60,845 bases of DNA from Sideroxydans sp. GTDB taxonomy: Bacteria > Pseudomonadota > Gammaproteobacteria > Burkholderiales > Gallionellaceae. The notes under the pieces are model-generated. The model saw nothing but the letters and a program-made list of their open reading frames with translations. It was not told the DNA's origin and made no database searches. Made by a program: the position numbers and the translations under genes. Below, one piece after another: positions 6,701 to 50,246 of the stretch (the first letter of the stretch is position 1; every line of letters starts with the position of its first letter). The DNA lies in assembly GCA_029850585.1 (NCBI GenBank), contig JARCRQ010000074.1, forward strand, positions 1-60,845, read 5' to 3'.

Positions 6701-6762
6701 GGGTGTCTCTAAAAATTAAAATATCGAAGCAACAACCCATCGCGAAGAGATTTGAATTTTGC
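6701..6762 (-). repeat. 3'-UTR MITE-like element, internally deleted copy (after apaG)
   Basis: Read on the minus strand, it starts AAAATTCAAATCTCTTCGC 8 bp after the apaG stop and ends TTCGATATTTTAATTTTTAG followed by AGACACCC. These match both ends of the element at 19315-19510, but the central hairpin is missing. Orientation relative to the upstream gene is the same as in the other three copies (rlmH, rng, ksgA). Confidence 0.7.
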
Positions 6763-6770
6763 GAAATGTC

Positions 6771-7154
6771 CTAGTGCAACACGCGTGGCACGCTCAAGAC
6801 AAACTCATGCACGGGCGCGTCGAATTCTTCGCCGTCTTCAGCTTGAAATTGATAGCTGCCACGCATCGTGCCGACATCGGTCGCCAGCACCGTGCCACTG
6901 GTGTATTCAAAACTTTGCTTCGGTTTGAGCAGCGGTTGTTCGCCCACCACGCCTTGTCCGCGCACCTCTTGCACCTGATTATTGCTATCGGTAATCACCC
7001 AGTGACGGCTCAGCAATTTAGCGGCTTGCGTGCCGATATTATTGATGGTGATGGTGTAGGCAAACACGTAACGATTGGCCGCCTCATCGGATTGGTCGGC
7101 TAGATAGTTGACTTTGGTTTGCACCACGATTTCATGCGGATTGGGATTTTTCAT
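6771..7154 (-). CDS. apaG: ApaG protein
   Basis: A 127-residue ApaG-family protein (DUF525, fibronectin-III-like fold), associated by mutant phenotype with Co2+/Mg2+ efflux but of unresolved biochemistry. Family landmarks are FAYTITINNIGTQAAKLLSR, HWVITDSNNQVQEVRGQGVV, GEQPLLKPKQSFEYTSGT and MRGSYQF. The start is placed at ATG 7154 (MKNPNPHEI) to match the usual 125-127 residues; in-frame ATGs at 7163 and 7190 would extend it. In many proteobacteria apaG follows ksgA. Here it is apart from that operon, upstream of mltA and divergent from ilvA. Confidence 0.92.
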   Translation of the reverse strand: MKNPNPHEIVVQTKVNYLADQSDEAANRYVFAYTITINNIGTQAAKLLSRHWVITDSNNQVQEVRGQGVVGEQPLLKPKQSFEYTSGTVLATDVGTMRGSYQFQAEDGEEFDAPVHEFVLSVPRVLH

Positions 7155-7255
7155 GCGCGGCATTTGAACCGATTTTGCTATATCTCGCAAGGGTTAAGGC
7201 GCACTTTTATGCTACCCTTCGCGGTCATTTTTTTCGCCTCTTGCCCTGCCTTGCT

Positions 7256-16617: not shown

Positions 16618-17088
16618 ATGAAGCTCATCATCGTCTCCGTAGGTCACAAAATGCCTGATTGGATTACGGTCGGGTTCAATGAGTACGTCAAGCGGATGCC
16701 GCGCGAGGCGAAGATTGAGCTGCTGGAAATCAAGCCTGAGCCGCGCACCACGGGCAAAACCACCGAGCAAATTATGCAAGCGGAAGCGCAGCGCATTTTG
16801 GCGGCGTTGCCGTCGAGTTGTTGGCGCATTGCTTTGGATGAACGCGGCGCGACACCGACCACCAAACAGCTCGCCGCGCACCTGCAAGACTGGATGCGCG
16901 AAGGCTGCGATGTCGCTTTTATTGTCGGTGGCGCGGATGGCTTACACCCAACGGTGAAGCAATCCGCCAAGCAGTTAATGGCTCTTTCCGCCTTGACCTT
17001 GCCGCACGCGTTTGTGCGCGTGCTGCTCGCCGAGCAGTTGTATCGCGCGCACAGCTTGATGCACAACCATCCGTATCATCGCGAGTAA
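16618..17088 (+). CDS. rlmH: 23S rRNA (pseudouridine1915-N3)-methyltransferase RlmH
   Basis: A 156-residue SPOUT-fold methyltransferase that methylates pseudouridine 1915 in helix 69 of 23S rRNA. Family landmarks are the N-terminal [16 protein letters not shown], the SAM loop [14 protein letters not shown], and the C-terminal [20 protein letters not shown]. Length is that of E. coli RlmH (155). Its start codon lies 3 bases after the end of a MITE-like element, and an orientation-biased repeat begins 6 bp after its stop. Confidence 0.96.
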
Positions 17089-17094
17089 TCAGGA

Positions 17095-17229
17095 GGCTCT
17101 AGAAACTCAAATCTCGTCGCAATACGGCGTTGCTCACAAAAAAATTACTCCTCACATAGTTGTTCTATGCGTCGTCGCAATTTTTTGTTCGCACCTTGTC
17201 TTGCTTAGATATTTGAATTTCTAGACCCC
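17095..17229 (+). repeat. 3'-UTR MITE-like element, full copy (after rlmH)
   Basis: The ends are inverted: TCTAGAAACTCAAATCTC at the left and, reversed, TCTAGAAATTCAAATATC at the right. The centre is a long imperfect hairpin, TGCTCACAAAAAAATTAC...CACATAG, loop TTGTT, then CTATGCG...GCAATTTTTTG. The left end begins 6 bp after the rlmH stop, in the same orientation relative to the gene as copies after rng, apaG and ksgA. The T-rich right arm could act in transcription termination. Confidence 0.78.
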
Positions 17230-17243
17230 CCTAAGAGATAAAC

Positions 17244-17858
17244 ATGCCCTTTCCGAAAATTTACCTCGCCTCACAAAGCCCGCGCCGCGCTGAGTTGCTT
17301 ACGCAAATTGGCGTGGCGTTTGAAGTGTTGCATGTGCGTAGCGACCGCGCGCGCGGTATGGATGTGGACGAAACGCCGTTGCCAAAAGAATTGCCCGAGG
17401 CGTATGTGCAGCGCGTGTGTTTGGCTAAAGTGACGGCGGCTTATGCCGTGTTGGGCTATCGCGCTTTGCCTGACGCGCCTGTATTGGCGGCGGATACCAC
17501 GGTGGTGCTGGACGGCAAAATTTTAGGTAAGCCCGACAGTCCCGCGCACGCGCTGGAAATGTTGCAAAGTTTATCGGGGCGCGAACATCAGGTGCTGACT
17601 GCATTGGCGGTGCGGCATGGCACGCAAGTTGAGACGGCATTGTCGGTATCCCGCGTGTGCTTTATTGAGCTGGATGAAGCGCGCATTCGTCGTTATTTGA
17701 TGAGCAGCGAAGGACGTGACAAAGCAGGCGGATATGGCATACAAGGTTTGGGGGGCGCGTTTGTGGCGCATCTGGCGGGCAGTTATTCGGGCGTGGTGGG
17801 TTTGCCCTTATGCGAGACCGTCGCGCTGTTACGCAAATTTAATTTAGTCACACCGTGA
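17244..17858 (+). CDS. maf: Maf-family nucleoside triphosphate pyrophosphatase
   Basis: A 204-residue Maf/HAM1-fold house-cleaning pyrophosphatase. Motifs are LASQSPRRAELLTQIG at the N-terminus, AADTTVVLDGKILGKP near residue 80, and DKAGGYGIQGLGGAFV near residue 157. The segment near DETPLPKELPEAYVQRVC resembles the YhdE-type dTTP/UTP pyrophosphatase rather than the m7GTP (YceF) type. Substrate class is inferred from that resemblance. It precedes rng by 10 bp, a conserved pairing. Confidence 0.93.
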   Translation: MPFPKIYLASQSPRRAELLTQIGVAFEVLHVRSDRARGMDVDETPLPKELPEAYVQRVCLAKVTAAYAVLGYRALPDAPVLAADTTVVLDGKILGKPDSPAHALEMLQSLSGREHQVLTALAVRHGTQVETALSVSRVCFIELDEARIRRYLMSSEGRDKAGGYGIQGLGGAFVAHLAGSYSGVVGLPLCETVALLRKFNLVTP

Positions 17859-17868
17859 GGAGCTGCGC

Positions 17869-19314
17869 ATGAGCGACGAAATTTTAATCAATGTCACCCC
17901 GCAAGAAACTCGCGTGGCGGTGATGCAGCAAGGCATCGTGCAGGATTTGCATATTGAGCGCAGCACGAGTCGCGGCATTGTCAGCAATGTGTATTTGGGT
18001 AAGGTGAAGCGCGTGTTGCCAGGGATGCAGTCGGCGTTTATCGACATTGGCATGGAGCGTTCGGCGTTTTTGCACGTTGCCGATATTTGGGAAAATACTG
18101 CCGACCCTAAGCCCATCGAACATCGTTTATTCGACGGGCAAAACATCTTGGTGCAAGTGATTAAAGACCCCATCGGCACGAAAGGTGCGCGCCTCACCAC
18201 GCAGCTCAGCATGGCGGGACGGCTGTTGGTTTTTTTGCCACAAGAAAGTCATATCGGCGTGTCGCAACGCATCGAAAGTGAGGCGCAGCGCGATGCCTTG
18301 CGCGCCAGTTTGCTGGCGGCGATTCCTGCCGAACATAAAGGTGGCTACATTATTCGCACCGTTGCCGAAGCCGCCGAGCAGCCTGATTTCGCAGCGGATG
18401 TGGCGTATTTGGATAGGTTGTGGACGGCATTGCAACTGGCGGCTAAAACCGCCAGCGCGCCGCAATTGTTGTATCAAGAATTGGACATCAGCCTGCGCGT
18501 GTTGCGCGACTTCGTGAACCAAGACACCGCGCGCATCCAAATTGATTCGCGCGTGACCTATCAAAAAATGTTGGATTTTGCGCAGGCTTATACGCCCATC
18601 GCTGCCGATAAATTAGAGCATTACCCTGGCGCGCGTCCGCTGTTTGATTTGTATGGCGTGGAAGAAGAAATCGAGCGCGCCTTATCTAAGCGCGTCGATT
18701 TGCCGTCGGGTGGTTATCTCATCATCGACCAGACCGAGGCATTGACCACGGTGGATGTGAACACGGGCGGCTTTGTCGGCTTGCGCAATTTTGACGACAC
18801 CATTTTTAAGACCAATCTCGAAGCCACCCAAGTTATCGCACGCCAACTGCGGCTGCGTAATTTGGGCGGCATTATCATTTGCGATTTTATCGACATGGAG
18901 AGTGCCGAACATCAAGCCACGGTACTGGCGGAGTTAAGCAAAGCACTGGCGCGCGACCATACGCGCATCACCGTGAATGGCTTTTCCGCATTGGGGTTGG
19001 TGGAGTTGACGCGCAAGCGCACGCGCGAAAGTCTGGCGCATTTACTATGCGAAGCCTGTCCGACCTGCCAAGGGCGCGGGCAGGTAAAAACCGCGCAAAC
19101 CGTGTGCTACCAAATCGTGCGGGAAATCGTCCGCGAAGCGCGTCAATTTAACGCGCGCGAATACCGCATCATGGCAGCACAACAAGTGATTGATTTGTTC
19201 TTAGACGAGGAATCGCAAGCCTTGGCGGAGCTGTCTGATTTCATCGCCAAACCCATTTCCTTGCAAGTCGAAACGGCTTATACGCAAGAGCAATACGATG
19301 TCATCCTGATGTAG
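17869..19314 (+). CDS. rng: Ribonuclease G
   Basis: A 481-residue RNase E/G-family endoribonuclease that processes the 5' end of 16S rRNA and some mRNAs. The start MSDEILINVTPQETRVAV is typical. An S1 domain follows (YLGKVKRVLPGMQSAFIDIG) with 5'-sensor residues, then the DNase I-like catalytic region with metal-binding Asp in TVDVNTGGFVG and CDFIDM. The Zn-link appears as CPTCQGRG near residue 400. It lacks the long C-terminal scaffold of RNase E. A repeat element begins at the stop codon. Confidence 0.96.
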   Translation: MSDEILINVTPQETRVAVMQQGIVQDLHIERSTSRGIVSNVYLGKVKRVLPGMQSAFIDIGMERSAFLHVADIWENTADPKPIEHRLFDGQNILVQVIKDPIGTKGARLTTQLSMAGRLLVFLPQESHIGVSQRIESEAQRDALRASLLAAIPAEHKGGYIIRTVAEAAEQPDFAADVAYLDRLWTALQLAAKTASAPQLLYQELDISLRVLRDFVNQDTARIQIDSRVTYQKMLDFAQAYTPIAADKLEHYPGARPLFDLYGVEEEIERALSKRVDLPSGGYLIIDQTEALTTVDVNTGGFVGLRNFDDTIFKTNLEATQVIARQLRLRNLGGIIICDFIDMESAEHQATVLAELSKALARDHTRITVNGFSALGLVELTRKRTRESLAHLLCEACPTCQGRGQVKTAQTVCYQIVREIVREARQFNAREYRIMAAQQVIDLFLDEESQALAELSDFIAKPISLQVETAYTQEQYDVILM

Positions 19315-19510
19315 GGCATCCCGTAAAACTCAAATCTCTTCGCGATGCGTTGTTACTCACAAAAAATTACTCCTTACATAGCACCTCTATGCCGCGTCGT
19401 AATTTTTTGTTCGCGCCTTCACATGAAACAAGAAGCGTAGCGACTATGTTTCATGGGGAAGCCCCTTGCGGGTTACCCTCACTTCGATATTTGAATTTTC
19501 CGAGATACCC
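19315..19510 (+). repeat. 3'-UTR MITE-like element with nested insertion (after rng)
   Basis: It starts directly at the rng stop with AAAACTCAAATCTCTTCGCG, continues through the same AAAAAATTACTCC...AATTTTTTGTTCGC hairpin as the 17095 copy, and ends ATATTTGAATTTTCCGAG. Relative to that copy it holds about 60 extra bases (roughly 19420-19480) with their own inverted repeat, ATGAAACA...TGTTTCAT, flanked by CTTCAC/CCTCAC. This explains most of the 321-bp gap before the carbonic anhydrase gene. Confidence 0.75.
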
Positions 19511-19536
19511 AGCAACTATTTAAGATATTACTTTTT

Positions 19537-19566
19537 TTCCACAGCGCAAAAATAACTGGCTATACT
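19537..19566 (+). promoter_or_regulatory. Candidate sigma70 promoter of the carbonic anhydrase gene
   Basis: A TATACT at 19561-19566 sits 18 bases after TTCCAC (19537-19542). It is the best -10-like hexamer in the non-repeat part of the spacer, about 70 bases before the ATG. The -35 box is weak. Confidence 0.32.
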
Positions 19567-19635
19567 CTTACGCTGCGACCGTGCAGTAAATAATTGCGGC
19601 GCACATCTAAATTAACTAAGGCTCAGGGAGAGTGT

Positions 19636-20379
19636 ATGTTTAAGCAAAAAATTGCATCGTTGTTGATCGCCGTTAGTATCTGTAGCCCGATGACCGTTAG
19701 CGCACATGAACACGGCGAAGCAGCCGTAGCGCGCTCTTTTATCAAAGACATTCAACAGGTAGAAAGCTCTTATGCAGCGGTGCATGGCGCGACGTTTTTC
19801 CAAGAATTATCGCGTGGACAACATCCTCGCGCCACTGTGGTCGCCTGCTCTGATTCGCGCGTGCATACCAATATGTTGGACACCAGCCCCGAAGGCGATT
19901 TGTTTATGATTCGCGACATTGGTAATCAAATTGCCACCGCCAAAGGTTCGGTGGAGTACGGCATCAATCATCTGGGCTCATCGTTGTTGCTGATTTTGGG
20001 ACACTCACGTTGCGGCGCGATTGCGGCAGCCAGCAGCGATTACAGCAAATTAGAAGAGGCGATTAAAAAAGAGTTGGACACCATTAAAGTGGCTAAAGGG
20101 GTGGCAAGCATTGACGGCGTACAAAGCAATGTGAACAACCAGGTTGCAGCGGCACTGGTGGAATACGCAGAAGCCGTTAAAGAAGGTCATCTGTTGATTG
20201 TCGGCGCGGTATATGACTTTGCTGATGATATGAAACAAGGTTCAGGCAAAATCAACATCATCAATGTCAACGGCAAAACGGATAGCAAGCAAATCAAGCT
20301 GCAATTAGAGCCGCATGATATTGCTGATGAAATGGGGCATGTCAGCCACAATGATATGGCACCCGCTACGGTTCACTAA
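19636..20379 (+). CDS. Exported beta-carbonic anhydrase
   Basis: A 247-residue beta-class carbonic anhydrase interconverting CO2 and bicarbonate. The zinc ligands are in VVACSDSRVH and ILGHSRCGAIAA. A clear signal peptide precedes the enzyme (KIASLLIAVSICSPMTVSAHE, cut near residue 22), so it should act in the periplasm. ATG 19636 follows CAGGGAG, and the upstream frame extension lacks support. It is flanked by its own weak promoter and a strong terminator, so it is a single-gene unit. A role in periplasmic inorganic-carbon or pH handling is inference. Confidence 0.92.
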   Translation: MFKQKIASLLIAVSICSPMTVSAHEHGEAAVARSFIKDIQQVESSYAAVHGATFFQELSRGQHPRATVVACSDSRVHTNMLDTSPEGDLFMIRDIGNQIATAKGSVEYGINHLGSSLLLILGHSRCGAIAAASSDYSKLEEAIKKELDTIKVAKGVASIDGVQSNVNNQVAAALVEYAEAVKEGHLLIVGAVYDFADDMKQGSGKINIINVNGKTDSKQIKLQLEPHDIADEMGHVSHNDMAPATVH

Positions 20380-49390: not shown

Positions 49391-49444
49391 GGGTCTCTTA
49401 ATGCAGCCAAGCCGTATTGCGATGAGATTTCAGTTTTTAGAGAT
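49391..49444 (-). repeat. 3'-UTR MITE-like element, short copy (overlaps ksgA stop)
   Basis: On the minus strand it reads TCTCTAAAAACTGAAATCTC then ATCGCAATACGGC and ends near AAGAGACCC. The left end matches the copies after rlmH and rng; the centre is deleted. The TCTCTAA at its edge supplies the ksgA stop codon (49439-49437). Orientation relative to the upstream gene is again the same. Confidence 0.68.
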
Positions 49445-50246
49445 TTCCTGCAGTGGTTTTTCCGTGTAAATCACAATAATTCGCGACGCGAATAAAGTCG
49501 GCGACACTCAAATTTTCGGCGCGTAGTTGCGCGTTAATTTCTAACGCAGCGAAATCTGCTTCTTGCAAAATTTGGCGCAAAGTATTGCGCAAAGTTTTGC
49601 GCCGTTGCCCAAATGCCATGCTCACAATCGCGGCAAATAATTTTTCGTTGCGCACCAAAATTTGCTCGGCAGGCAAGGGAATCATGCGCACGATAGCGGA
49701 ATCGACTTTAGGCGCAGGTTTGAACGATTCGGGCGGTACATCCAGCAGTTTTTCCATAACAAAACGATATTGCAACATCACCGACAAGCGTCCATAAGCA
49801 GGCGTGGAATGCTCGGCGACCATGCGTTCGACCACTTCGTTCTGCAACATAAAGTGCATGTCGGTGATGCGTGCGCTAAAGCGCGTGAAGTGAAATAACA
49901 GCGGTGTGGAAATGTTGTAAGGCAGATTGCCGACGATGCGCAGCGGTGTGTCCAAGGTAGCAAAATCAAATTCCAGCGCGTCGCCCGCATGAATAATCAG
50001 CTTGGTTTTCTCGTGTTCTTGCGGGTAGTCGTTGTGCAAGCGCGCGATGATGTCGCGGTCGATTTCCACCACATGCAAATGATTGAGTTGCTTGAGTAAG
50101 GGGCGAGTCAGCGCGCCTAAACCAGGCCCGATTTCGACCATGTTGTCGGCAGCTTGAGGACGGATGCACGACACGATGTCGGCGATGATGGATTGATCGA
50201 CCAAGAAGTTTTGACCGAATTGTTTTTTAGCTTTATGCGCGCTCAT
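49437..50246 (-). CDS. ksgA: 16S rRNA dimethyladenosine transferase
   Basis: A 269-residue enzyme that dimethylates A1518 and A1519 of 16S rRNA as a late check on small-subunit assembly. Motifs: [22 protein letters not shown] loop [15 protein letters not shown], catalytic [14 protein letters not shown], and [14 protein letters not shown]. The last residues and stop are encoded by the end of a MITE-like repeat. The start overlaps the pdxA end by 14 bp in the conserved lptD-surA-pdxA-ksgA operon. Confidence 0.96.

Follow-up and report, generated by a model that had tools for sequence, protein, structure and literature searches.

A MITE-like repeat family of the Nitrosomonadales at stop codons, and its one-sided orientation in a Sideroxydans genome

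How does one short repeat come to lie, four times in a 60,845-nt stretch of Sideroxydans sp. DNA (the window), at the very end of a gene and always in the direction of that gene? A first-pass annotation had reported copies following rlmH, rng, apaG and ksgA, and had proposed a mobile terminator, an mRNA 3′ end or a transposon that targets such sites, considering that random insertion of a MITE would not give this arrangement. All four copies proved to be real and to lie close to where they had been placed. The copies and the adjoining genes, whose products (RlmH, Maf, RNase G, ApaG and KsgA) were confirmed, are the following:

About 6701-6771, minus strand: element copy 3′ of apaG; central hairpin deleted, both ends joined
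6771-7190, minus strand: apaG (NF003967), upstream of this third copy
16618-17088, plus strand: rlmH (NF000986), upstream of the main copy
About 17092-17231, plus strand: element copy 3′ of rlmH; full, with a single long hairpin; the main copy
17244-17858, plus strand: maf, downstream of the main copy
17869-19314, plus strand: rng (ribonuclease G, RNase G; NF008689), upstream of the second copy
About 19314-19510, plus strand: element copy 3′ of rng, carrying a 56-nt internal hairpin module (about 19420-19475)
About 49391-49448, minus strand: element copy at ksgA; truncated, mostly left end plus a right-end remnant
49437-50246, minus strand: ksgA (TIGR00755), upstream of this fourth copy

In all four cases the left end sits at the stop codon of the upstream gene and the element reads in the same direction, on either strand, as had been claimed. 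The left end of the rlmH copy lies 3 bp past the rlmH stop codon (17086-17088), and the last G of the rng stop codon (TAG, 19312-19314) is common to the gene and the element. The apaG copy overlaps the apaG stop codon (6771-6773, minus strand), and the ksgA stop codon (49437-49439) lies inside the element copy, which supplies it. In a comparison between species, the 400 bp 3′ of rlmH (or as much of it as the stretch covered) contained no element in any of 29 relatives. By eye, several relatives have other palindrome-like inserts, of unlike sequence, directly after the rlmH stop codon (L140, L146, L149, L150, L151, L153, L162, L163 and L164); this spot thus seems to be colonised by different repeats.

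Architecture of the element and its census in the window genome

The consensus is 138 bp long, with GGG...CCC ends and terminal inverted repeats, and forms one hairpin closed by its ends. The long hairpin originally remarked upon in the full copies is borne out: the whole element folds as one, with an A-rich and a T-rich arm. Over 70 copies, 26 base pairs were paired in 96.1% of cases and double changes occurred at 15 of the 26 (171 cells), a level that none of 500 shuffles attained. This covariation is suggestive of an RNA structure maintained by compensation after insertion, an explanation we rejected because most stem changes between copies occupying the same junction in different species disrupt pairing (in 10 such pairs of copies, 32 are broken, 7 preserved through a change on one side, 6 compensatory and 5 unpaired in both, a count that includes 8 outer base pairs added by hand). 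The strong covariation therefore lies mainly between subfamilies; the palindrome has been kept in active lineages, and not evidently after insertion.

Selection for folding of the sense transcript is not supported either, since the antisense RNA is on average the better folder in every group considered, namely the window genome, its genus and G051, a closed 3.7-Mb genome from another family of the order. Mean folding energies were -52.9 kcal/mol for the antisense and -39.1 kcal/mol for the sense strand in the 17 of 36 window-genome copies that were folded. Sense-strand A-C mismatches outnumbered G-U pairs in these 17 copies (71 vs. 46) and in 86 genus copies (402 vs. 247), the balance being reversed in 46 G051 copies (115 vs. 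127). At the gathering threshold of Rfam 15 the window matches only a tRNA, and a described RNA family was set aside as the identity of the element.

The element is also modular. Its 56-nt hairpin keeps to one position, a 26-nt module to two or three, and like ends flank other centres as well. The 56-nt module seen in the rng copy (19420-19475) recurs in L016, L019, L021, L028, L029 and L409, and in L409 the element ends enclose another set of modules. The 26-nt module occupies two or three positions within copies (L015, L021, L022, L028 and L198); it has four exact matches in its own genome, all within copies, and a one-mismatch match at C41. At a junction filled in G025, G097 and G087 (L170, L174 and L192), the G087 copy alone carries an extra 3′ module, which suggests gain or loss of modules in situ. 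A core CTCCTTA (19370-19376 and equivalents) is common among window-genome copies, the rlmH copy having CTCCTCA; we take its antisense, UAAGGAG, to resemble a Shine-Dalgarno sequence, with a putative effect on translation.

BLAST with the rlmH copy against its own genome (1.97 Mb in 101 contigs) gave 53 rows, and a profile built from 12 full copies gave 58, in both cases far above chance. Joining antisense self-hits and split pieces, and dropping short rows found by BLAST only with E >0.1, merged these into 36 places; the 56-nt module led to two more outside the 36, one sense (C75) and one between divergent genes (C46). With genes called by a small purpose-written codon-usage script rather than a standard gene finder, the 36 places comprised 25 sense and 3 antisense copies between co-directional genes; 3 further copies had convergent and 3 divergent neighbours, and for 2 a neighbour was called on one side only. 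The 25:3 split is significant (p = 2.7e-5). Left ends adjoining a co-directional gene fall within -20 to +10 bp of its stop codon in 27 of 28 cases, vs. 3 of the 6 right ends that face a stop codon (within -30 to +20 bp), and the next co-directional gene begins 4-127 bp past the element in the 25 sense copies. The sense bias and the proximity to stop codons first seen in the window thus hold throughout its genome.

Relatives of the element and its mobility

The element is a family of the Nitrosomonadales group. It occurs in at least 53 of 76 genomes of the genus and gave 65 profile matches in G051, 51 of which were classified. A pattern scan of named genomes found at least 118 stretches with the element, and among the 80 stretches listed are Gallionella, Sideroxydans, Sideroxyarcus, Nitrosomonas, Candidatus Nitrotoga, Methylotenera, Sulfuricellaceae and others. 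Two samples are used below, each drawn from the matches listed: a genus sample of 91 copies, weighted to those resembling the window copies, and a broad sample of 144 copies (154 before de-duplication within itself), which partly overlaps the earlier genomes and in which 35 of 144 copies have no gene on one side.

The first 30 G051 copies viewed are nearly identical to each other, many with 4-bp direct repeats outside their ends. The 16-bp ends of the element also occur in this genome as seven pairs spaced 1,334-1,335 bp apart, which delimit IS copies; 4 of 7 of these are again flanked by 4-bp direct repeats. The first open reading frame of the IS matches the IS5-family transposase model NF033581 at 159.9 bits (cut-off 140 bits) and contains DUF772 and DDE_Tnp_1. 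Overlapping frames of 299 and 167 amino acids, present in four G051 IS copies among those listed, suggest a transposase of the frameshift type. The matching 16-bp ends, the 4-bp duplications and the NF033581 transposase together identify the element as an IS5-type MITE; that it is a new family within this known kind is well supported.

Traces of target duplication are clear in the relatives. The direct match between flanks was 0.90-0.97 per base in G051 (shuffled 0.41-0.74; 30 of 51 copies, with intact ends) and 0.74-0.83 in the genus relatives (shuffled 0.37-0.60; 53 of 91 copies), and exact 4-bp duplications were called in 28 of 51 G051 and 31 of 91 genus copies, vs. 1 of 36 in the window genome. 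For the 15 of 36 window-genome copies with both ends intact, flank match was 0.33-0.40 (shuffled 0.31-0.35), indicating no duplication and falling well below the value of about 0.84 expected from divergence of the element itself. The bodies of these copies are thus more alike than their flanks, from which the duplications have gone. For them, insertion by a transposase with target duplication is an indirect conclusion, drawn from the ends and duplications of the relatives, and it is through these relatives that the window-genome element is classed as a MITE. In the same 15 copies, the bases flanking the two ends are complementary rather than duplicated, above shuffled levels at the first two positions (0.67 vs. 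0.37 and 0.67 vs. 0.47) but below them at the third (0.07 vs. 0.18).

The window genome itself gave no match to an IS5_4 transposase or the NF033581 family, although a 101-contig draft may lack one. Among eight genomes, no such transposase was present in G061, G077, G085 and G008, one each in G019 and G076, and more in G099 and G051; there is no clear link with orientation, and transposase presence was discarded as the cause of even orientation. A loose search for element ends around the transposase genes of G019, G076 and G099 had no hit in L414 and L416 and one weak hit in L415; the same search gave one end hit in L417, which continues as an element copy.

Stop codons, orientation and competing explanations

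No element copy lies inside a called gene among the 178 classified in the window genome, G051 and the genus sample. Full copies were found within -3 to +6 bp of a stop codon in 27 of 90 cases, vs. 6.8% expected (p = 3e-11) from sites allowed by the target 4-mer and the coding constraint. It should be noted that this null ignores selection against insertions in promoters and ribosome sites, so the excess mixes target preference and survival. In the broad sample, among the matches listed, 25 of 44 left ends and 19 of 57 right ends lie within -20 to +10 bp of a stop codon, left ends somewhat more often (p = 0.026), and 18 left and 12 right ends lie within -1 to +1. The suggestion that the element targets stop sites is consistent with its presence there beyond what a simple null allows.

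The duplication provides an explanation for this placement. In 9 of 10 sense copies of the genus sample with an exact duplication, TAA or TGA lies within the duplicated 4-mer (for example TAAA, TAAT, TGAT or TGAA), and elsewhere the element contributes the last base of the stop codon with its first G. Insertion at such a site spares the gene and leaves the protein intact. A MITE can thus yield the observed placement simply because its 4-bp target duplication rebuilds the stop codon; this, together with the even orientation of the family, contradicts the original argument that random MITE insertion could not do so.

The idea of a fixed orientation held in the window genome (25:3), but did not extend to the family. 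The broad sample contains 38 sense and 36 antisense copies among the matches listed, G051 11 and 19 (of 51 copies), and the genus sample, also among the matches listed and weighted to window-like copies, 36 and 21. The family as a whole has no set direction, and the one-sidedness of the window genome, which is real, does not follow from how the element is arranged in its relatives. In the four relatives whose copies score best against the window profile, sense:antisense counts were 4:0 (G076), 8:1 (G019), 2:0 (G061) and 7:8 (G077). The first three pool to 14:1 (p = 0.001), although part of the orientation in these relatives had been seen beforehand and G077 was left out post hoc. Copies with exact duplications, taken from partly overlapping samples among the matches listed, number 27 sense to 31 antisense; for those without, the ratio is 49:36 if the window genome is excluded (p = 0.23) and 74:39 if it is included (p = 0.02). 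This pooled comparison leans towards a loss of antisense copies over time and rests largely on the window genome, while the left-right difference at stop codons leaves room for a mild insertion bias. Three processes are compatible with both the one-sidedness and the missing duplications in the window genome: selection that kept sense copies, a bias at insertion, or concerted evolution; a function is possible.

Our preferred reading, to which we assign a probability of roughly 0.55, is that the element is a non-autonomous IS5-family MITE for which stop codons are the favoured surviving site, and that sense copies were retained and antisense copies lost in the window lineage. A DDE transposase recognising GGGYRYCTCTAAAAAT-type ends would insert the element, with duplication, at AT-rich 4-bp targets. 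Copies in coding DNA would not be tolerated, in agreement with their absence from called genes, and a stop codon, itself a target, would be rebuilt by the duplication or the first G and become the favoured place of survival, as the observed placement suggests. Transcription there would yield a hairpin, either between two genes or within the 3′ untranslated region. Copies reading with the gene would then be kept in the window lineage and those reading against it lost, plausibly because the stronger folding computed for the antisense strand is predicted to disturb the message more.

We favour retention as the reason for one-sidedness with moderate confidence. It is supported by the even orientation where copies are young (the 27:31 of copies with duplications) compared to the 25:3 of the window genome. 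Counting against it are the non-significant link between age and orientation once the window genome is removed, the 7:8 ratio in G077 despite its similar copies, the excess of antisense folding in G051 with no sense bias, and the preference for left ends at stop codons, which insertion bias could also produce.

The alternative that survives best, although we consider it unlikely, is precisely such a one-sided insertion: the target of the mobilising enzyme in the window subfamily would have been asymmetric and have taken in the stop codon, setting the orientation at insertion, with no selection needed. The differences between left and right ends in the window genome and across the family agree with this, as does the lack of normal 4-bp duplications in window-genome copies. 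Two window-genome sites are also filled in relatives (G076 and G077). Stop codon and orientation agree; the copies there are not the nearest kin of those in the window genome and hence not simple orthologues. Repeated targeting would give this pattern, and we discarded the view that the window-genome copies are ancient shared insertions on account of it; shared insertions of old date could, however, look the same if gene conversion had since homogenised their bodies. Against one-sided insertion, relatives with clear duplications use both ends at stop codons, and their duplications occur in both directions with respect to the element.

A bolder account, which we hold to be similarly doubtful, is that a stop-landing MITE has turned, in one Gallionella-like lineage, into some 25-30 sense hairpins at gene ends, serving as shared 3′-UTR or intercistronic RNA elements with exchangeable modules and maintained by selection or concerted evolution. 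In a stricter form that seems to us rather improbable, the copies have been put to use as hairpins that tune the decay or processing of the upstream mRNA and are kept by purifying selection. Besides their orientation and position, and the likeness of window-genome bodies whose flanking duplications have gone, this form draws on same-junction copies. Identity of the element in the 10 pairs from different species (8 junctions) is 74-98%, vs. 53-78% at flanking third codon positions, and the element is more conserved than adjacent non-coding DNA in 7 of 7 pairs with at least 10 bp alignable; paired columns differ slightly less often (23/408) than unpaired (28/368) or loop columns (8/73). The predominance of broken over compensatory stem changes argues against such use, as do covariation that lies mainly between subfamilies and a sense strand that is the worse folder. 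Moreover, several pairs have the junction partner equalled or surpassed in similarity by other copies. What looks like conservation can therefore arise through gene conversion or re-insertion, and any one of selection, gene conversion among copies and re-insertion at the same stop codon could account for the identity.

It is improbable, too, that one-sidedness is a chance feature of one genome picked for looking unusual. The finding was indeed selected for its orientation and the broad sample is even (38:36, among the matches listed), but the p value of the 25:3 split and the counts in the window-like relatives, with the post hoc reservation attached to their pooling, speak against it. Finally, a mobile intrinsic terminator, suggested by the A-rich and T-rich arms of the hairpin and its location after stop codons, is very improbable and was rejected, and an mRNA 3′ end is not supported either: a co-directional gene follows within 4-127 bp in 25 of 36 copies and only 3 of 36 are convergent, rlmH and maf lie ≤30 bp apart in 16 of 29 relatives, and a simple consensus scan around the two full window copies (17050-17260 and 19280-19640) found no G+C-rich stem directly before a T run.

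Comparison with known repeats and wider meaning

Among the open-licence PMC papers listed for bacterial MITEs and repeats, Gallionella, Nitrosomonas, stop codons and orientation bias, none has a title or abstract opening that describes this family. The known systems that come closest are compared here by description, from parts of the cited papers. BOX of Streptococcus pneumoniae consists of small modular mobile repeats with inverted ends, for which mobilisation by a resident IS was proposed from end similarity, and 36 BOX copies provide a gene with its stop codon (PMC3049150). Modularity, inverted ends and a stop codon supplied by the repeat are thus shared with our element. The host, ends and modules differ, as judged from descriptions rather than sequences, and the parts of the source used here report no genome-wide sense lock for BOX; the Nitrosomonadales element, in contrast, has IS5-type ends and 4-bp duplications.

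ERIC (RU-1) is a mobile repeat of about 127 bp in transcribed intergenic DNA, with an orientation-dependent effect on the upstream mRNA, and is reported to have TA at its ends and TA duplications (PMC2229807, PMC2759123). The GGG...CCC ends and 4-bp duplications of our element differ from these, again as described, and ERIC membership was rejected for lack of TA ends and TA duplication. YPAL (RU-2) of Yersinia is likewise a small mobile repeat, reported to have moved recently and to be co-translated with upstream genes; in the part of the source used, it differs in its 3-26 bp duplications, internal inverted repeats and targets at or next to dyad symmetry (PMC2229807). MITEAba12 of Acinetobacter is a MITE of 111-114 bp that is moved by a resident IS whose ends match its own. 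It has 9-bp duplications and weak predicted folding, no orientation preference was found, and placement at stop codons is not mentioned in the portion of the paper drawn on (PMC6382973).

As this family illustrates, a transposable element can build up in a compact genome when the stop codon is a safe site, rebuilt by the element's own target duplication. G051, with its young-looking copies in even orientation, and the window genome, with its sense copies, offer a natural comparison for asking whether intergenic repeats are purged according to their orientation or come into use in mRNAs, as has long been asked of ERIC, BOX and REP-like repeats.
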